Shown: in pieces, positions 2,011 through 27,138 of the stretch | Position numbering within the stretch: position 1 is the first letter of the stretch | How the letters are laid out: every line of letters starts with the position of its first letter | NCBI GenBank assembly: GCA_944325055.1 | Contig: CALUYP010000048.1 | Coordinates: 1 to 37,075 of the forward strand | DNA: 37,075 nt | Source: an uncultured Elusimicrobiales bacterium | GTDB taxonomy: Bacteria > Elusimicrobiota > Elusimicrobia > Elusimicrobiales > Elusimicrobiaceae | Reading direction: 5' to 3' | Translations under genes and position numbers: made by a program | Notes under the pieces: generated by a model | Databases searched by the model: none | What the model saw: only the letters and a program-made list of their open reading frames with translations | Told to the model about the DNA's origin: nothing

Positions 2011-2098
2011 CTTTAAAAATAAAAAGTTATGGGAATAAATTTTATACAATACTATCATACGCTTCTATAGCGTGAACCTTAAAAGGGGATTTAAATCA

Positions 2099-3685
2099 AT
2101 GAATAAAAAATATTTTTTGCCGGCGGCGTTAACCGCCTTGGTGTTTGCAGCCTTGTTTATAAGCGGTTGCAAAAAAACAGAAAAGTCCGGTGCTTTGCCT
2201 GCACCTGTGGTCAATGCCATTACGGTGGTACAAAAAGATCTTCCATGGAATATAGAGTATCCGGCGCAAGTGGCGGGTTCACTGGAAATCCAAATCCGCG
2301 CCCAAGTAGGGGGTATTTTGCAAGCCCGGCTGTATAATGAAGGAGAATATGTTACCGAGGGAACACAGCTGTTCCAAATAGACGATAAAGAATATAAAGT
2401 GGCGTTGGAAAAAGCCCAGGGTACTTTGGCTCAAGCCAAAGCGGAAGAACGCCGTACCCAGCGTACTTATTCACGTATGAAACGGCTGCGTGCGGATAAT
2501 GCTATCAGCCAGCAGGATTATGATAATGCCCTTTCCGCCTATGAAACGGCCCAAGCAAATGTAAAAGTGGCCCAAGCCGGTGTAAGCGATGCGGAAATTA
2601 ATTTAGGTTATACAAAAGTGACGGCGCCTATTTCTGGAATTGCCGGCAAAGAAGCACAATCGGTGGGCAGCTTGATTTCTCCTGCCGGAGAGTCCGGTTT
2701 GCTGACGACAATGGTTCAAATTAATCCGCTGTATGTTAATTTCTCTATGCCCAGCCGCCAGTTTGAAAAACTATCCGCCGGTTTTGTTTCCGGCCAAATT
2801 TCTATTGGCACCAAAGAACAACAGGATAAATTGGCCGCCGATCAATACCGCCGTACCGCTGCGGCGGATGCGCCCCTTTATGTGGAGGTGTTGTTAAATA
2901 ACGGTAAAATTTATCCTGAAAAAGGAAAAATTGTGTTCTTCGACAGCACTGAAAATACCCAAACTTCCAGCTTGGCCATGAAGGCGGAATTTGCCAATCC
3001 TAAAAATTCACGCGCCTTAATGCCCGGACAATTCGTGCGGGTGCGTTTGGTCGGAGCTACTTATAAAAACGCTATTTTGATTCCTTCTTCAGCCGTGCTT
3101 AATACCGCGCAAGGAATGCTGGCTTATGTGATTGACGCAAATGATACGGTCGTATCCAGACCAATTCAGGCGCAACTCCAGGATGATATGTATATCGTAA
3201 CGGATGGATTAAAAGCCGGAGACCGTATTGTAAGTGAAGGGCTGATCAAAGTGCGTCCCGGACAACAAGTACAGGTGCAAATGAAAACTTTTAATGCGGC
3301 AGAAGCGCCCGCTCCGCAGGAGCAGCCTCTTTCGCAGGACGGAAGAAGCACTGCATTATTAGAAGAAGAAATTGAAGAGTCTGAAGCGCCTGATACGCAA
3401 GCGTTGCCGGCTGATGAGAAGGCCGATTCTCCCGCCAAAGAAGCGTCCGCCGCTCCTGCCGCGGCCTCTGCCGAAAAGGTGTCGGCAACTGCGGCAAAGC
3501 AAACGGAGGCTTTGGTAAATTCCGCATCAAATTCGACAGTGCCTGCTTCAAAGGCTGAACCTGCTCTCTCTGCTCCGGCGGATAAAGCGGCGGCTGCGGC
3601 GGACGCGGAGTCTGCTATTCCCTCCGGGAAAGTGCAAGCGACTGCCTCTTCGGAGACGGAATCAAACGCCGTTGCCGCGAAATAA
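2099..3685 (+). CDS. RND efflux periplasmic adaptor (AcrA/MexA-type lipoprotein)
   Basis: Membrane fusion protein of 528 residues that links the RND pump to the outer-membrane channel. An upstream GTG at 2072 is possible, but ATG 2099 is preferred: AGGGGA sits about nine bases before it and the product begins with a clean lipoprotein signal ending FISGC (lipid-modified Cys24). The order is lipoyl half-motif, alpha-hairpin (about 95-165), second lipoyl half and beta-barrel, as in AcrA. After about residue 400, where this family usually ends, there is an extra tail of about 125 residues that is acidic and Ala, Ser, Glu and Pro rich. The pump gene begins nine bases downstream. Substrate cannot be predicted. 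Confidence 0.92.
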   Translation: MNKKYFLPAALTALVFAALFISGCKKTEKSGALPAPVVNAITVVQKDLPWNIEYPAQVAGSLEIQIRAQVGGILQARLYNEGEYVTEGTQLFQIDDKEYKVALEKAQGTLAQAKAEERRTQRTYSRMKRLRADNAISQQDYDNALSAYETAQANVKVAQAGVSDAEINLGYTKVTAPISGIAGKEAQSVGSLISPAGESGLLTTMVQINPLYVNFSMPSRQFEKLSAGFVSGQISIGTKEQQDKLAADQYRRTAAADAPLYVEVLLNNGKIYPEKGKIVFFDSTENTQTSSLAMKAEFANPKNSRALMPGQFVRVRLVGATYKNAILIPSSAVLNTAQGMLAYVIDANDTVVSRPIQAQLQDDMYIVTDGLKAGDRIVSEGLIKVRPGQQVQVQMKTFNAAEAPAPQEQPLSQDGRSTALLEEEIEESEAPDTQALPADEKADSPAKEASAAPAAASAEKVSATAAKQTEALVNSASNSTVPASKAEPALSAPADKAAAAADAESAIPSGKVQATASSETESNAVAAK

Positions 3686-3694
3686 GGAGAGGGT

Positions 3695-6600
3695 ATGTTT
3701 TCTAAATTTTTTATCAACCGTCCCATTTTTTCTACGGTCATTTCGTTGTTGATTTCGCTGGCGGGAATCGTGTCTATCACGATGCTTCCGATTGAACAAT
3801 ATCCCGATTTGACTCCTCCCACGGTGGAAGTGTCCGCTACGTACCCAGGCGCCAGCCCGGAAGTAATCGCCAATACCGTAGCCGCACCGATTGAACAACA
3901 AGTCAACGGAGTGGAAGACATGTTGTATATGAATTCCACTTCTTCTTCCAATGGGGATATGTCTTTGGTGGTATCGTTTAAAGTAGGGACGGATCCCGAC
4001 CAAGCGGTCATTAACGTCAATAACCGCGTTCAGGGCGCAACGGCAAGTCTGCCTGAGGATGTCCGCCGATATGGGATTACGGTCGATAAAAAATCTTCCT
4101 CTATTTTGCAATTAATTGCTTTGTATTCGCCTAACGGACATTCCGACACGACCACCATCGGCAACTATGCCTTGCTCAATATCGTAGATGATCTAAAACG
4201 TATTGAGGGCGTTGGGGATGCGCAGGTGATGTCTGCCAACGATTACTCTATCCGTATTTGGATTAAGCCGGATGTTTTGTCCCAACGAGGTCTTTCGGTC
4301 AGTGATTTGGTATCCGCCGTTCAAGCGCAAAATACCCAGCGGTCTGCCGGTAAAATCGGGCAGCCGCCGCTGCCTGTTAAAGTAGACCGGATGTATTCCA
4401 TCATCGCACCCGGCCGGTTAACCGATCCAAAGGAATTTGAAGAAATTATTTTACGCGCCAATCCCGACGGTACATCCCTTCGGTTAAAAGATGTGGCGCG
4501 CGTAGAGTTAGGCAGTCAGACGTATGAATTCAATGCTACGTTTAACGGAAAACCCGCCGTACCGATTGGCATTTATTTGTCTCCGGGGGCCAACGCCGTA
4601 GCAACCGCCGAAGCGGTGGACGCGCATATGAAAGAACTGGCCCAAAACTTTCCGCCGGAATTGGATATAGACTATCAGGTGGCCTATGATACCACCTTAT
4701 TCGTAACCGCTTCCATCAAAGAAGTGATCCATACGCTGATTGAAGCGATGATTTTAGTGTTTTTAGTGGTCTATTTGTTCTTGAAGGACTGGCGTGCCAC
4801 GTTAATTCCCTGTTTGGCGGTGCCGGTATCCATTATCGGCGCGTTTGCCGGGATGTTGTTGTTGGGATTTTCAATCAATACGTTGACGTTGTTTGGATTG
4901 GTGCTGGCGATCGGTATGGTGGTGGACGACGCGATTGTAGTAATTGAAAACGTGGAACGCATCATGCACGAAGAAAATCTGCCGGTGAAAGAAGCGACCA
5001 TTAAGGCCATGGATGAAGTGTCCGGCCCGGTGGTAGCGATCGTGCTGGTGTTGTGCTCCGTGTTTGTGCCGGTGGCGTTTATGGGCGGGCTGACGGGGGT
5101 CATGTACCAGCAGTTTGCTATTACAATTGCCGTTTCAGTGATTATTTCCGGGCTGGTGGCGCTTACGCTGACGCCCGCTTTGTGTGCGTTGCTGCTTAAA
5201 AAACAAGAACACCCGACCAAAGGATTTTTCTACCAGTTTGACCGGTTTTTCGAAAAGATGACGGAAAAATATGGTTCTTGGGTATCGTTTTTTATCCGCC
5301 GTTTATCGGTGTCCGCCATATTGATTGCGGTCATCTTTTTGGCGGCATTGGTATTGTTTAAAACCGTACCTACCAGCTTATTGCCGGATGAGGACCAAGG
5401 GGTAATTATGGTGGCGGCGCAGCTGGATCCGTCGGCCTCGTTATCCAACAGCGATGCGGTAGCCAAACAGTTGGAGGAATTGATCGAAGCGCAGCCGGCG
5501 GTATCGCAGGAATTGACGTTTTCTGGATTTGATTTGCTCAGCAGTACCCAAAAAGGCAATGCGGTCTCTTCGTTTATTATGTTAAAGCCTTGGGATGAAC
5601 GCAAGGAAAAATCGCTTTCAGCGGCTGCGGTGGTGCAGGATTTGTATGTTCAATCCCAAGTTAAAATTCCGGCTGCGGTGGTAATGCCGTTTAATCCGCC
5701 CGCCATTATGGGTATGAGTACAACGGGCGGTTTGGAAGGATATATCCAAAACCGCAGTTCCGGAGGGAGTGCGGAGCTGGAAGCGCAGACGCAAAAATTT
5801 ATTGAAGCGGCCAAGAAACGTCCGGAGCTTTCCAGCGTTAGTACTACTTTCTCCGCGGCGGTGCCGCAGTATAAGTTGGATGTAGACGAGATCAAAGCGC
5901 AGGCTATGGGAGTGACGCTGTCGGAGTTGTATACGACTTTACAAGGAACGTTTGGAACTTATTATATCAATGATTTTACGTATTCCGGACGCAGTTTTAA
6001 AGTGATGATGCAGGCGGATGGGGAATACCGCGCCAAGCCCGAACAAATTTCGGGTATTTACGTCCGTTCTTCTTCCGGCGCGATGGTGCCGCTTTCGACG
6101 TTGGTCACGCTGACGCCCATTTTAGGGCCGGATGTAGTGGAACGGTTTAACGTATTCCCGGCGGCTAAAATCATCGCCAACCCGGCGGAAGGATATAGCT
6201 CGGGAGACGCCATCCGCGCCGTCGAAGAAACCGCCAAAGAAGTGCTGGACTCCGGGTTTACCTTGGCTTGGACGGGAACCACTTATCAAGAAAAGCTGAC
6301 GGGCAGCTCTTCTGCTTCAGCGTTGCTGTTGGGGATGTTGGTAGTATTTCTGATTCTGGCGGCGCAGTATGAAAAGTGGAGCCTTCCCATCGCGGTGTTG
6401 CTGGCGGTGCCGTTTGCCTTGTTTGGCGCATTGGCCGGTACGTGGGCGAGAGGACTTTCCAATGATGTTTATTTCCAAATTGCATTGGTGGCGCTGGTTG
6501 GGTTGGCGGCCAAGAACGCGATTTTGATTGTAGAATTTGCCGTCATGCTAAAACAGCAGGGCATGGAAGCGGCAAAGGCCGCGGTACAGGCGGCGCAGCT

Positions 6601-6844
6601 GCGTTTCCGCCCGATTGTGATGACTTCACTGGCGTTTATTTTAGGATGTGTTCCATTAGCTGTCAGCACCGGCGCTGGGGCGGCCAGCCGCCATTCGATT
6701 GGGACGGCGGTTGTATTTGGAATGTTGGCCGCTACGGCGATTGCGCCGTTGTTTATTCCGCTTTTCTTCTGCATATTTGACGGTCGGAAAAAGAAAGAAA
6801 CGGCGGTTGCAGTGCAAGTTGAAAATAAAGAGGAGCAAATATGA
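3695..6844 (+). CDS. RND multidrug efflux pump, inner-membrane permease (AcrB/MexB type)
   Basis: Product of 1049 residues, the usual HAE1-RND length. It exports drugs or other amphiphiles using the proton gradient, working as a trimer with the adaptor and outer-membrane channel. The start FSKFFINRPIFSTVISLLIS is typical. The proton-relay pair is present as Asp411-Asp412 (GMVVDDAIVVIENVER), and the matching lysine is Lys940 in AAKNAILIVEFA. Twelve transmembrane helices and two large periplasmic loops are evident. The ATG at 3695 has GGAGAGGG just upstream. Its stop overlaps the start of the outer-membrane gene by four bases (ATGA), so translation is likely coupled. No frame break is visible. 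Confidence 0.95.
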   Translation: MFSKFFINRPIFSTVISLLISLAGIVSITMLPIEQYPDLTPPTVEVSATYPGASPEVIANTVAAPIEQQVNGVEDMLYMNSTSSSNGDMSLVVSFKVGTDPDQAVINVNNRVQGATASLPEDVRRYGITVDKKSSSILQLIALYSPNGHSDTTTIGNYALLNIVDDLKRIEGVGDAQVMSANDYSIRIWIKPDVLSQRGLSVSDLVSAVQAQNTQRSAGKIGQPPLPVKVDRMYSIIAPGRLTDPKEFEEIILRANPDGTSLRLKDVARVELGSQTYEFNATFNGKPAVPIGIYLSPGANAVATAEAVDAHMKELAQNFPPELDIDYQVAYDTTLFVTASIKEVIHTLIEAMILVFLVVYLFLKDWRATLIPCLAVPVSIIGAFAGMLLLGFSINTLTLFGLVLAIGMVVDDAIVVIENVERIMHEENLPVKEATIKAMDEVSGPVVAIVLVLCSVFVPVAFMGGLTGVMYQQFAITIAVSVIISGLVALTLTPALCALLLKKQEHPTKGFFYQFDRFFEKMTEKYGSWVSFFIRRLSVSAILIAVIFLAALVLFKTVPTSLLPDEDQGVIMVAAQLDPSASLSNSDAVAKQLEELIEAQPAVSQELTFSGFDLLSSTQKGNAVSSFIMLKPWDERKEKSLSAAAVVQDLYVQSQVKIPAAVVMPFNPPAIMGMSTTGGLEGYIQNRSSGGSAELEAQTQKFIEAAKKRPELSSVSTTFSAAVPQYKLDVDEIKAQAMGVTLSELYTTLQGTFGTYYINDFTYSGRSFKVMMQADGEYRAKPEQISGIYVRSSSGAMVPLSTLVTLTPILGPDVVERFNVFPAAKIIANPAEGYSSGDAIRAVEETAKEVLDSGFTLAWTGTTYQEKLTGSSSASALLLGMLVVFLILAAQYEKWSLPIAVLLAVPFALFGALAGTWARGLSNDVYFQIALVALVGLAAKNAILIVEFAVMLKQQGMEAAKAAVQAAQLRFRPIVMTSLAFILGCVPLAVSTGAGAASRHSIGTAVVFGMLAATAIAPLFIPLFFCIFDGRKKKETAVAVQVENKEEQI

Positions 6845-8289
6845 ATCTAAAACAATTAGGAGCTGTGTGGGCGGCGTCCCTTTTCTTGGGCGGTTGTATG
6901 TTAGGACCCAATTATAAACAGCCGGAACTGGATTTGCCTGCCGGGCAGTCTTCCGATAACTTTAGCGTGTTTACCAATGCCAAGTGGTGGGAAGTATTCC
7001 AAGATCCGGTGTTGGACCAATTGGAAGCGGAGGCGTTGGAATACAATAAAGATTTACAAGCCGCCGTTGCGCGGGTAGATCAAGCCCGTGCCGCTGTGGG
7101 GATTGCCACGGCAGACCAGTTGCCGAGTCTTTCCGCCGCGGCAGAGTCTGGACGGGCTGGCAGCCAGGCCGGTTCCGGCGAAACGCAAAGTACCGCTAAT
7201 GTGTCGGTTTCGTATGAATTAGATCTGTGGGGTAAATACCGCCGTTTAAGCGAAGCGGCCCGCGCCCAGTTGCTTGCCAGTGAGGCCGCACGCGATACGA
7301 TACGCTTGACGCTCACGGCAGATGTAGCCAAAAATTATTTTTCGCTTCGCATGTTGGATGCCCAGTTGGAAATCGCCCAGCGTACTTTAAAGGCGCGGCA
7401 AGAAAATGTGCGCATCTATACCAGCCGTTATCAAAACGGTTATTGTACGGAAGTGGATTTGAAACGTGTGGAAGCCAATATGGCCAGCGTGCAGGCGCAG
7501 GAACAGCAACTGCGTTTGAAGATTGCTCAGACGGAAACGGCTCTTTCCGTGTTGGTAGGAAAATCTCCGCGGGAAATGGTCCAGAACGATACGGCGAGGG
7601 GGAAGAGTCTGTCGGAAATTACGCTTATTCCCGACGTGCCGGAAGGAATCCCGTCCGATTTGCTCGCCCGCCGTCCGGATGTGCGTTCCGCGGAAGGACA
7701 GCTGATTGCCGCCAATGCCAATATCGGTGCGGCCCGCGCGGCTTATTTCCCTTCTATTCCGTTGACGGCTTCTGCCGGTTATGCCAGCGGCGCATTGAAT
7801 GATTTGTTTACCGGATCGTCCGGCGTTTGGGCTGTCGGCGGACAATTATTAGCGCCTATTTTTGAAGGCGGCAAAATCCGTGCGGAAAACGAACAAGCAG
7901 AAGCTCAATATCGTGAGATGTTGGCCTCGTATGAAAAAACGGTGCAAGGGGCTTTCAAAGAAGCATTGGATGCCATTGCGGCAAACCGGATCAACCGTGA
8001 AATTTTTGATTCTTACAAGCAGCAAACCGAAGCCATGTAGCGCAGTTACGATTTGACTAAAAAGCAAGAAGACGCGGGGCTGATTGGCGTAACCGATTTG
8101 CTCGATGTAGAAGAGAATCTGCTTTCCGCCGAAATGAATTTGGCCTCCGCACGCAATGATGAATTGGCGGCTGTGGTGAACTTATCCAAGGCATTGGGCG
8201 GCGGATGGAACGTACAGGAAGGGTTTGGCCCATACGAACAGTTAGTCAAAGACCAACAGACTGAATTGAAAACACAAGCAGCCAAGTAA
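6841..8289 (+). pseudogene. RND outer-membrane factor (OprM/NodT family), interrupted by in-frame TAG
   Basis: An outer-membrane lipoprotein channel: the signal ends LGGC at Cys19, followed by MLGPNYKQP, the classic NodT/OprM start. The frame is open from 6841 to a TAG at 8038-8040 (399 codons). It continues in the same frame from 8041 to TAA at 8289 with clear family sequence (SYDLTKKQEDAGLIGVTDLL, then ENLLSAEMNLASARND). The full product would be 482 residues with one stop inside the last alpha-hairpin. The family commonly has Gln there, and CAG to TAG is a single change. Without readthrough the protein loses its final helices and should not form a trimer. The alternatives are a real nonsense mutation, a base-call error, or suppression. 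TAG also ends the intact GH3 gene at 33929, so general recoding is unlikely. Confidence 0.88.
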
Positions 8290-8303
8290 AAATTCGGTTT
8301 ACA

Positions 8304-8340
8304 CAACGTCCCGTTCAAATAGAACGGGACGTTGTTTTTT
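8304..8340 (+). terminator. Rho-independent terminator of the efflux operon
   Basis: CAACGTCCCGTTC (8304-8316) pairs perfectly with GAACGGGACGTTG (8322-8334) across a five-base loop, followed by a run of T. It lies 15 bases past the TAA of the outer-membrane gene, which supports the operon extending through the TAG at 8038. Confidence 0.9.
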
Positions 8341-8376
8341 ATAGAAATATATTTGTTAAAATAAAGACAGAAGAAC

Positions 8377-8404
8377 TTGATTTTCTGAAATTCTAAGATA
8401 CACT
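8377..8404 (+). promoter_or_regulatory. Candidate promoter of the 8444 gene
   Basis: TTGATT (8377-8382), 16 bases, then TACACT (8399-8404), each four or more of six against consensus. A GGGGAG ribosome-binding site lies eight bases before the ATG at 8444. Confidence 0.35.
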
Positions 8405-8443
8405 ATTTAGTAAGGCGAAAATGCTTTTTGGGGAGAGAAAAGT

Positions 8444-9169
8444 ATGTTTAAAGTTTATAAAAAATTATTTAGTATATGCCTGTTTTTCTGTATGACGGCT
8501 TCTGTTTCTGCGGAAGTGATTTCCACGATTAGTTATAATCCATCCCGTATGGGGGAATATACTTATTTGAAGATATCAGACAGAGCTTCCTTTAAAGGCG
8601 GATTAACTACACCTGTATTGAATATTAATTCTAGTGGAACGGTGTCTATGGAAAGTGATACAAATTTGCGTATTGATGATCTTATAGAGAGTAGCGGCGC
8701 CAGTATTAATATGCCAAATACAGTCTTTCATGGAAATGCTTCTGTTTCCTATGCTTCCTATGATGCGGAAGATGAAAGTCTCCCTTCTACAGGGTTGCTT
8801 CCTCAAGTACAAGTTAAAGGAGGGGAGCAGAATTATAAACAGGATTCTTATATTAATACATTAGAAGCTGTAAATATATTAAAGCAGAAAGTAGCTCTTC
8901 TTAAAAGTTCTACCACGAATATTCTAGGGAATAAAGGCGCTTCGGTGACACTGTATGAAGGAGACACTACGACTGGTTTTTTATTGGATGGAAAAGATAT
9001 TCCTGAGCCTACTGCTATGCATACCAATACCGGAAAAGATTTATCATCCTGTGAATTGGTTTGGGAAAAGAGAAAGACAAGTGATACCACAACAAAGACG
9101 GTGTATTTATTGGCCTTAAAGGGTTGTTCTTCTTCTGCCCCCACTACGGGAGATGAATCCGAAGATTAA
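8444..9169 (+). CDS. Secreted protein of unknown function, Ser/Thr-rich
   Basis: Product of 241 residues. Residues 1-23 form a signal peptide ending SVSA, so it is exported. I do not recognise a family. Residues of about 40-110 alternate short hydrophobic stretches with Ser, Asn and Gly (SSGTVSMESDTNLRIDDL), which suggests stacked beta strands such as a beta-helix. This is inference. The C-terminal part has two Cys (SSCELVWEK and LKGCSSS) that could form a disulfide, and the protein ends in an acidic Thr/Ser tail. The ATG has GGGGAGAG upstream. It sits alone between two hairpins and is probably monocistronic. Its base composition is more AT-rich than the efflux genes before it. Possible roles are a surface fibre or appendage subunit. 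Confidence 0.75.
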   Translation: MFKVYKKLFSICLFFCMTASVSAEVISTISYNPSRMGEYTYLKISDRASFKGGLTTPVLNINSSGTVSMESDTNLRIDDLIESSGASINMPNTVFHGNASVSYASYDAEDESLPSTGLLPQVQVKGGEQNYKQDSYINTLEAVNILKQKVALLKSSTTNILGNKGASVTLYEGDTTTGFLLDGKDIPEPTAMHTNTGKDLSSCELVWEKRKTSDTTTKTVYLLALKGCSSSAPTTGDESED

Positions 9170-9205
9170 GAGATATCCCTTTTATTTATATTATAGAGTG
9201 TTATG

Positions 9206-9238
9206 TACGTAAAGCAGCTAGATTAGCTGCTTTACGTA
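9206..9238. terminator. Perfect 15-bp hairpin after the secreted protein gene
   Basis: TACGTAAAGCAGCTA (9206-9220) pairs with TAGCTGCTTTACGTA (9224-9238) across a three-base loop. No strong T run follows on either strand, so terminator function is plausible but not certain. A regulatory or protein-binding palindrome is the alternative. Confidence 0.5.
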
Positions 9239-9279
9239 TAGAGGTATTCTTTTGTGAAATTCTTTTCTCTTTAATTTAG

Positions 9280-9285
9280 TAAAAT
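9280..9285 (+). promoter_or_regulatory. -10 box of purB, probably leaderless
   Basis: TAAAAT lies exactly six bases before the purB ATG (9292). No Shine-Dalgarno sequence is present in the A/T-rich stretch between. No convincing -35 box is seen at 16-18 bases. Confidence 0.35.
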
Positions 9286-9291
9286 ATAAAT

Positions 9292-10686
9292 ATGAACATA
9301 CCGGCGCTGTGCCCGTTGGACGGCCGTTATAGCGGCAGACTGGGCGCGCTCAGAAGTGTAATGAGCGAAGCCGCCTTTCTTGCATCCCGCGTGCGGATAG
9401 AATGTACATGGCTGGAAATTCTTTCCAAGTTAAAGCTTCCCCATTTTAAAACGCTTTCTCCACAAGAACGTCAGTTGTTGGCGGAGAAGGGAGTTTTGTC
9501 TGAAGCCGATTTAAAACTTATTTGCAACTTGGAATTTAACGGATATCAAAATATCCCGCCTACCAAACATGATGTAAAAGCCATAGAATATTTTTTGCGC
9601 TTGCGACTTGAAAACACTTCTCTCAAGGACCGGTTGCCTTGGATCCATTTTGCGCTGACCAGCGAAGACGTCAACAGCGCCGCTTATGCACTTTTATTAG
9701 CAGACGGAGTGGAAAAGGTTCTCTTGCCCTTGCTGGCAAAACTGCAAAGAGAATTGGAAAAATTAGCCTGTAAAGAAGCCAAATCTGTTTTGCTGGCGCG
9801 TACGCATGGCCAGCCGGCCGTGCCGACTACTTTTGGAAAAGAAATCCGCGTATATCTTTGCCGAATTACTCGTCAAATAGAAGAGTTGAAAAAGAGGAAA
9901 ATTTCCTTTAAATGGGGCGGCGCGGTGGGAAATTTTAATGCCCATTATGCAGCTTTTCCTCAGGTCAGCTGGCCGCACGCCGCACGCAAAATGGAGACTG
10001 TGTTAAACCATAAACGGAAAATTAAACTGTTTCTGTCTCCTCTTTCTACGCAGGTGGATCCGCGGGACAGTTATGCGGAATTATTTGATAATTTGCGTCG
10101 GATAAATATCATTTTGTTGGATTTATGCCGAGATATGTGGCAGTATGTTTCGGCGGGGTTAGTACGGCAGAAAGCAATAAAGGGGGAAGTGGGCTCTTCC
10201 ACCATGCCGCAAAAAGTTAATCCCATTGATTTTGAAAATGCCGAAGGCAATTTAGAATTAGCGGATGCGTTATTTGAATTTTTTTCACGGAAACTTCCGG
10301 TCTCGCGTCTCCAGCGGGATTTATCGGATTCCACGGTGCTGCGTAACATGGCGGCAGCGTTTGGATATGCGTGTGTAGCGTATGAATCTGTCTTGAACGG
10401 GTTATCCAAGATCTCTTTTAACCGGGTTTTGGGGAGAGAAGAAGTGCGATCCCATCCGGAAGTATTAGCGGAGGCAATTCAAACGATTCTGCGGGCGGGG
10501 GGCTATCTCCAAGCATATGAAATGTTGCGCGATTTGACGCGCGGACAAAAAATAACAATGGCGTCCTTGGACCAGTTGATAGAAAATTTGCCTATTGATG
10601 ATCAGACCCGTGTTAAACTAAAAGCATTGCGTCCGGAAGAATATTTGGGCCTGGCGTGCGAAATGGCGGAGGGAAGGTATGATTGA
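9292..10686 (+). CDS. purB: Adenylosuccinate lyase
   Basis: Product of 464 residues of the E. coli PurB type. It cleaves SAICAR and adenylosuccinate in purine synthesis. The start CPLDGRYSGRLGALRSVMSE is diagnostic of this subgroup. The catalytic His region is THGQPAVPTTFGKE and the flexible signature loop is GSSTMPQKVNPIDFEN, holding the catalytic Ser. E. coli PurB has MPHKVNP here, so Gln replaces His outside the catalytic residues. The C-terminal DSTVLRN and VLAEAIQTILR also match. The last eight bases overlap purA, so the two genes are co-translated and together turn IMP into AMP. Start codon chosen because nothing upstream is open and the family start fits. Confidence 0.95.
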   Translation: MNIPALCPLDGRYSGRLGALRSVMSEAAFLASRVRIECTWLEILSKLKLPHFKTLSPQERQLLAEKGVLSEADLKLICNLEFNGYQNIPPTKHDVKAIEYFLRLRLENTSLKDRLPWIHFALTSEDVNSAAYALLLADGVEKVLLPLLAKLQRELEKLACKEAKSVLLARTHGQPAVPTTFGKEIRVYLCRITRQIEELKKRKISFKWGGAVGNFNAHYAAFPQVSWPHAARKMETVLNHKRKIKLFLSPLSTQVDPRDSYAELFDNLRRINIILLDLCRDMWQYVSAGLVRQKAIKGEVGSSTMPQKVNPIDFENAEGNLELADALFEFFSRKLPVSRLQRDLSDSTVLRNMAAAFGYACVAYESVLNGLSKISFNRVLGREEVRSHPEVLAEAIQTILRAGGYLQAYEMLRDLTRGQKITMASLDQLIENLPIDDQTRVKLKALRPEEYLGLACEMAEGRYD

Positions 10687-11695
10687 TATTGTATGCGGCG
10701 GACAAGCCGGCGATGAAGGAAAAGGTAAAATTTCCGCTTATTTGTCTTATAAAGGAAATTATGATTATTGCGTGCGGGTAGGCGGTCCCAATGCGGGCCA
10801 TACGGTAGTTAAGGACGGAAAGTCCTACACGCTTAAAAATATTCCGTCCGGATTTTTAAATCCGAAAACGAAATTGGTATTAGGTGCCGGCGCGTATACG
10901 AAAACAGAATGGCTGCTTGAAGAAATCCAGTTTACCGGGACGCGAGACCGGCTGATTATCGATCCTTATGCAGTATTGATTTCCGACGAACAAACTGCGG
11001 CCGAGAAGAATGCCTCGCATTTTATGAAGCACATTGGAAGCGTTGGAACGGGATTAGGGCAGGCCGTACGCGACCGAATTGAACGGCGCAATATCAAATT
11101 TGCCAAAGATGAGCCGTTGTTAAAAGAGTTTATTCAAGATGTTCCCGAATTATTAAATAACTGTTTGGATCAAGACGGAGAAATTTTGTTGGAAGGTACG
11201 CAAGGCATTAAACTCTCTTTATTGCATGGGGAGTATCCCTTTGTTACCTCGCGCGATACCACCGCCAGCACGTTTTTGGGAGAGGCGGGCTTAGGTCCCA
11301 AATCGGTACGGGACGTATATGTCGTGTTTAAACCATATATTACGCGGGTTGGCCCCGGTCCTTTGGAAGAAGAGTTAACGGATGAAAACAAATTGGAAGT
11401 TTATCATACAAAAGGCCATGAAATAGGAAGCGTGAGCAAACGGCTGCGCCGTATTGGTGCGTTTGAGCCGCGTTCAGCCGCCAGGGCCATTATGATTAAC
11501 AACTGTACAAAAATCGCCATCACGCATATTGATATGTTTCCCGGGAATGACCGTGTGAGAAGATATGAGGATTTTACTCCTGAAGCGAAGCAATTTCTGG
11601 AGAATCTAAAAACATTATCTTCCCAAACTTATCCACATCCGGCAATTTCCCTAATTTCTACCGGTCCGGAAATGGAAGATACCTTGGTTTTATAA
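10679..11695 (+). CDS. purA: Adenylosuccinate synthetase, short form
   Basis: Product of 338 residues catalysing GTP-dependent ligation of IMP and aspartate. The P-loop-like GQAGDEGKGK is at residues 8-17, and GGPNAGHT follows at the IMP site. GTQGIKLSLLHGEYPFVTSRDTT and the Arg-rich GHEIGSVSKRLRRIGAFEP region are present. Most bacterial PurA proteins are about 430 residues. This one has the compact length known from archaeal and some thermophile enzymes and shows no sign of a frame break. It overlaps purB by eight bases and has GGAGGG upstream. A strong terminator follows. Confidence 0.93.
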   Translation: MIDIVCGGQAGDEGKGKISAYLSYKGNYDYCVRVGGPNAGHTVVKDGKSYTLKNIPSGFLNPKTKLVLGAGAYTKTEWLLEEIQFTGTRDRLIIDPYAVLISDEQTAAEKNASHFMKHIGSVGTGLGQAVRDRIERRNIKFAKDEPLLKEFIQDVPELLNNCLDQDGEILLEGTQGIKLSLLHGEYPFVTSRDTTASTFLGEAGLGPKSVRDVYVVFKPYITRVGPGPLEEELTDENKLEVYHTKGHEIGSVSKRLRRIGAFEPRSAARAIMINNCTKIAITHIDMFPGNDRVRRYEDFTPEAKQFLENLKTLSSQTYPHPAISLISTGPEMEDTLVL

Positions 11696-26047: not shown

Positions 26048-27138
26048 TTAGAAGGAAAGCATCTCTATTTGTTCCGGTGTTTTATCCAGCGGCAGGACTT
26101 GAGATTTTACCGAAGCAAAATCAATTTTGCTTAGATCCACTTGCCGGATTTGGCTGTTATTCATGGTGCGGTAATAGAAAGACGGCCGGGTCATATTGGT
26201 AACGCTGGTCCACTGGGTGGCGCTGGGTAAGTCCGGTATTTTTTGATCCGGAGCAAACTCTACGCCGATTGGAATATCAAAGTTATTCAAAATATGAAAG
26301 GCTTGCAAAACGCCTGCTTCTGCGTTCGGCATAACGGGTGCGGTGTGTAAATAGAAAAAGGCCCGAACGAAGCGGGAAGGAGGCGTAATATCGCCGGGAA
26401 GTCCCCACATACCGGCCCCAGCGCCGAAAGCGGAGAGGGTGGTCTTACCATAAGGTTGGGGGCGCACATCTCCGGCCTGCAGATGAACGTAATTGTTTAG
26501 GTGGGTTACTTGCCACGGAAAAGAAGGCGAATTAGTAAACACTCCAACTGTATTTTCATAAATATGACGTTCACCCTTATTCTCAATTTCCAACACAATA
26601 CTGCGCCCGCTTGCATCGGCGATGCGCCAATGCCCGGTAGAAGAGGTTTCTTGCCCGGCTTGTGGAGGATAAATTGTTACAATATCTATTTTTTTAAGGC
26701 CTTGTATCACTTCTTCTACCGTAGCGAAATTGGTTAATATCCAACGTACCAGTTCCACATCCGCTACCGATTTTTTGGCCCGTTTGGGGTTATAGGCGCC
26801 TAAGCTGCCATATCCTGAAAAATAAAAAATACCGGCGGCCAGTCCTTTTTCATTGACCCCCTCACCGATAAAAGGATCTTTTACCACACTGATACCAACG
26901 GCTCCGTATTTATTTTTCCAAGAAAGACCGTTTTGGCCCTGCGGAGTGAAAGAAGTATTTGTTGCCCCCGCGGCATAATTACGAGTTTGCTTTCCAGCGA
27001 AAAACCGCCCCATTCTATGGTACGGGCTTGTAGTTGGGTGCCGTCTTGCGTACTAAATGAGATTCCCGTGCAGGCGTCGACTGGTATTTGTGATAAGACA
27101 AATCCGATCGTGAACAAAAAAGAAAATGTTTTTTTCAT
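26048..27138 (-). pseudogene. Choloylglycine hydrolase family (bile salt hydrolase/penicillin V acylase), frameshifted
   Basis: The ATG at 27138 follows AGGAGG and starts a signal peptide that ends just before Cys (VDA then CTGISF). Cys is the N-terminal nucleophile exposed by processing. The active-site Arg is in ARTIEW, with Glu where many members have Asp. The reading frame reaches VIMPRG and is then lost. Family sequence resumes in the next frame (ATNTSFTPQGQNGLSW, YGAVGI, GEGVNEKGLAAG, TNSPSFPWQ, TPPSRFVRAFFY). The break lies at the C tract 26965-26969 (five bases, plus strand). One extra base there would restore a single protein of about 363 residues. It may be a pseudogene, a phase-variable tract or a sequencing error. 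If active, it would be periplasmic and hydrolyse conjugated bile salts, penicillin V or acyl-homoserine lactones. Confidence 0.87.

Follow-up and report, generated by a model that had tools for sequence, protein, structure and literature searches.

A lone in-frame amber codon interrupts the NodT/OprM channel gene of an otherwise intact RND efflux operon in a gut Elusimicrobiota genome

Results

The window, the 37,075-nucleotide stretch of DNA analysed here, is the whole of contig 48 of a gut Elusimicrobiota MAG (1.32 Mb in 81 contigs, 90% completeness), the nearest named relatives of which are gut Elusimicrobiota MAGs. On its forward strand lies an RND efflux operon with an intact gene for a periplasmic adaptor of 537 aa (2072-3685; TIGR01730 RND_mfp, 244 bits against a cut-off of 94.9) and an intact gene for a permease of 1049 aa (3695-6844; Pfam ACR_tran, 1124 bits; NF000282, 1388.8 bits against a cut-off of 1250). 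The permease frame is open in this genome and in its relatives; as a separate observation, the permease orthologue of one genome (G017, C8:52827-55846) consists of two adjoining pieces that share no common open frame, suggesting a frameshift there.

The outer-membrane channel gene lies directly downstream of the permease, an adjacency also seen in relatives, and it is here that the operon is interrupted. The 5' part of the gene (6841-8040, +; 399 aa; Pfam OEP, 146.7 bits) ends in a premature in-frame TAG at codon 400 (8038-8040, +), past which the same frame continues with a conserved 3' remainder (8041-8289, +) of 82 codons and a TAA at 8287-8289. This remainder has its own Pfam OEP match (31.9 bits), and dN/dS over codons 401-470 is 0.01-0.05. 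When the TAG is read through, the protein matches the TIGR01845 outer_NodT model along positions 2-460 of 460 (410.7 bits against a cut-off of 210) and aligns along its full length with OprM (E 2.2e-70, residues 19-460). The preliminary description of this DNA had claimed a lone stop splitting a channel gene, OprM/NodT sequence after that stop, and undamaged adaptor and pump genes, all of which these matches bear out. Like the known NodT/OprM efflux channels (TIGR01845; OprM, 1wp1; CusC, 3pik; SilC, 9rmm), the gene belongs to an operon with an adaptor and a permease; what sets it apart is the TAG at codon 400, present in this genome alone. Further downstream, a 241-aa ORF (8444-9169, +) has no Pfam match and no relative among the 13 nearest loci.

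At the position of codon 400, a stop occurs in 0 of 48 orthologous loci, some of which are one genome present in two collections. The codons found there are CAG (22 loci), CGC (9), CAA (8), AAA (3) and CGT (3), with CGA, AAT and AAG once each. CAG is thus both the commonest codon and the one present in the closest relatives, and a single C-to-T change from it suffices to produce the TAG, as had been proposed. The channels of two relatives (G021 and G031) carry TAA at codons 450-460, close to the C-terminus. Loss of the channel without loss of the permease is seen in no other genome of the genus, and the two genus genomes that have no channel orthologue also lack the matching permease.

Silent sites have diverged nearly to saturation from every sampled relative, yet dN/dS for the two nearest of these is 0.04 before the stop and 0.01-0.03 after it. 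Where the 13 nearest loci are invariant, the channel has one unique residue at 317 positions, a rate as low as that of the permease in the same test (1 at 785 invariant positions). Neither the relaxed constraint nor the several lesions of a decayed pseudogene are seen; the channel gene has a single lesion and is still fully constrained, so that the lesion either arose very recently or does not exist in the living population. In the same part of the window (2072-11695), purB has 18 unique residues at 278 invariant positions.

The channel is not the only gene interrupted in this way. When ~77% of the genome was set against one relative, G023 (1.02 Mb against 1.24 Mb), over 230,000 aligned residues, three clean lone mid-gene stops emerged, each of them a TAG at a glutamine codon that is CAG in G023; among these aligned residues none of the clean lone stops was TAA, or TGA or TAG at tryptophan. 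Beside the channel, the interrupted genes are atpA (contig 66, TAG at C66:4655) and a gene for a YgjP-like peptidase, identified with Pfam (contig 18, TAG at C18:50357), and all three sites lie away from contig ends. The atpA gene, the sole copy in the genome, is otherwise near-perfect, with 316 of 329 residues identical before the stop and 169 of 184 after it, and the site is open in all other genus genomes that show it. The YgjP-like gene is present in 24 of the 25 genomes searched, and outside this genome all 23 copies are open. The reverse scan, over a comparable 230,000 aligned residues, found no convincing mid-gene stop in G023. Further apparent stops were discarded as shadow frames antisense to ribosomal or other genes (contigs 31, 11 and 35) or as lying upstream of true starts (contigs 52, 80 and 23).

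In-frame TAG at a conserved glutamine in several genes is also what amber recoding would produce, as in the crAss-like phages that use genetic code 15 and in supE-type suppressor strains. This genome differs from those systems: many of its genes end in TAG, its RF1 is intact and the tRNA search gave none with a CUA anticodon. The preliminary description had held amber to be a real stop, and the GH3 gene indeed ends in TAG (33929); it had also called amber rare, which it is not, since TAG ends 4 of the 30 ORFs in the window and 97 of 647 orthologue-paired ORFs genome-wide (about 15%, a few of these being shadow ORFs) versus 91 of 647 in G023, with no sign of depletion. The gene for RF1, prfA, encodes 360 aa, 94% identical to the product in G023, and both tRNA-Gln genes are identical to those of that relative. 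The search for an amber suppressor tRNA, which had also been suggested, found the CUA anticodon in none of 44 tRNAs of this ~90%-complete genome, from which the Ile-GAU and Ala-UGC tRNA genes appear to be missing; the one tRNA cut by a contig end has an anticodon that reads CGU. On the common TAG terminators, the intact RF1 and the lack of a detected CUA tRNA, we reject a change of genetic code. The authors of Codetta have cautioned that in-frame stops of pseudogenes tend to be those that one transition can create, and that they resemble recoding (PMC8629427).

Single-base frameshifts interrupt three further, otherwise conserved genes, as found with a scan that used a codon-position filter (an unfiltered scan was swamped by shadow frames). 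One is in the window itself: a choloylglycine-hydrolase-family (bile-salt-hydrolase-like) gene (26051-27122, -) is frameshifted near 26959-26968, such that the conserved N-terminal part lies in another frame; most genomes of the genus that carry this gene have it at full length. The others are a methylthiotransferase-like gene (contig 11, ~14.2 kb) and an MsrB-MsrA gene (contig 67, ~19.1 kb), both intact in G023. The genome also holds a true, older pseudogene, a TolC-type channel gene on contig 28 (locus L170, 1360-2712) with three in-frame TAA codons and raised divergence; an intact HlyD-type adaptor ORF adjoins it. An RseP-like gene (C20:10925) has a TGA close to its C-terminus, and the end of the contig is 85 bases away.

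All three lone nonsense codons are CAG-to-TAG transitions, the chance of which is ~5e-5 under random substitution and 0.014 if only C>T or G>A nonsense changes are considered; none of the C>T or G>A nonsense changes is at CAA, CGA or TGG. In the one 10-kb region where singletons were counted (window 2072-11695), C>T and G>A singletons at the first and second codon positions are over-represented on this lineage (21 of 48 versus 84 of 348 among 13 relatives; Fisher p 0.008). We also considered C-to-T damage to the source DNA and rejected it, since three nonsense changes in ~14,184 C>T or G>A opportunities are too few and too selective.

Termination at codon 400 would end translation after residue 399. 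In a structure model that is poor overall (pLDDT 51.9, ~72 around Q400), and from which only local helix boundaries were used, Q400 falls close to where a long predicted helix (338-411) ends; a turn and a returning helix (417-452) follow. The end of the long periplasmic helix and the entire returning helix of the second OEP repeat would thus be lost, and the Pfam matches likewise place the end of that repeat after the stop, leaving the truncated form without half an OEP repeat. Lacking part of this repeat, the 399-aa product should therefore not form a trimeric channel or its alpha-barrel. The pump might then be silent, or leaky via a distant channel. The genome has four other intact OEP-family channels (contigs 53, 33, 32 and 34), of which the one on contig 33 adjoins its own permease, and matches between the interrupted gene and its paralogues in the genome are only ~20-25% identical.

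Discussion

Overall, we lean slightly toward the view that the stop is an ordinary, fresh C-to-T nonsense allele and one of several recent lesions in this genome. According to this model, the channel gene, part of a chromosomal RND efflux operon, would have acquired its amber TAG by a very recent transition in the glutamine codon CAG at 8038. The stop is found in this genome and at none of the orthologous loci, the frame is otherwise intact and its constraint undiminished, and TAG is a normal terminator here, with RF1 intact and a CUA anticodon found in none of the tRNAs. Transitions at CAG combined with single-base slippage match the spectrum of spontaneous mutation better than random error does, which favours real, fresh alleles, and the three frameshifts in otherwise conserved genes fit that spectrum. 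Thus, the locus resembles the single-lesion nonsense pseudogenes of bacteria, in which one in-frame stop lies a single transition away from an otherwise intact frame; it differs from them in that its lesion is a candidate, seen in a MAG consensus. Both the presence of this base in the living population and the loss of channel function are inferences. At the same time, it is difficult to believe that the only atpA has truly been lost, and the genus has kept both atpA and the YgjP-like gene throughout.

That conservation, together with the fact that the channel is never seen to be lost alone elsewhere, makes a consensus artefact nearly as plausible, and we regard it as a serious contender, if somewhat short of an even chance. 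Under such a model, the T at 8038 arose as an error in assembly or sequencing, or came into the MAG consensus from a minority strain, and the channel of the population is intact. An unrelaxed channel gene is what this would predict, and similar lone lesions in two genus-conserved genes, frameshifts in three more, and a relative with no convincing mid-gene stop over a comparable set of residues all point the same way, as does the draft nature of an assembly in 81 contigs. Nonetheless, the artefact would have to strike as C-to-T at CAG on three of three occasions, which random substitution would hardly achieve, and at sites distant from contig ends.

A third explanation is natural amber suppression, in which some UAG codons would be decoded as glutamine by an unseen suppressor tRNA or by near-cognate reading, with TAG still ending genes in the ordinary way. 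The channel, atpA and the YgjP-like gene would all tolerate a CAG-to-TAG change under this model, the near-perfect atpA sequence on both sides of its stop would be expected, and read-through of UAG in E. coli does insert glutamine among other residues (PMC11126739). The occurrence of all three clean lone stops at CAG, with its probability of 0.014, leaves some room for such amber tolerance. Set against this are the tRNA complement, with no CUA anticodon and with tRNA-Gln genes unchanged relative to G023, the intact RF1 and the undepleted TAG terminators, and the fresh frameshifts elsewhere would need another cause regardless. We therefore consider amber suppression improbable.

A long-standing pseudogene, in decay within a pump for which the lineage has no further need, is less probable still: the contig 28 channel shows that such cases exist in this very genome, and two genus genomes lack both channel and matching permease, but a single lesion, intact adaptor and permease genes, and full constraint on both sides of the stop contradict it. 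Equally remote is a programmed stop, whether for regulated read-through or for a functional 399-aa short protein, in favour of which there is nothing specific beyond the open frame after the stop, and which sits poorly with a TAG confined to one genome and a product missing half of an OEP repeat.

The meaning of the lone TAG differs with its origin. If amber suppression were true, this bacterium would be one of the rare natural examples of ambiguous decoding at a stop codon. If the base is an artefact, the locus is a warning against calling gene loss from single lesions in MAGs, since atpA would count as lost by the same reasoning. If, as we slightly favour, the nonsense allele is real, the genome would have been caught early in the loss of an efflux channel, with the other two parts of the pump still intact.
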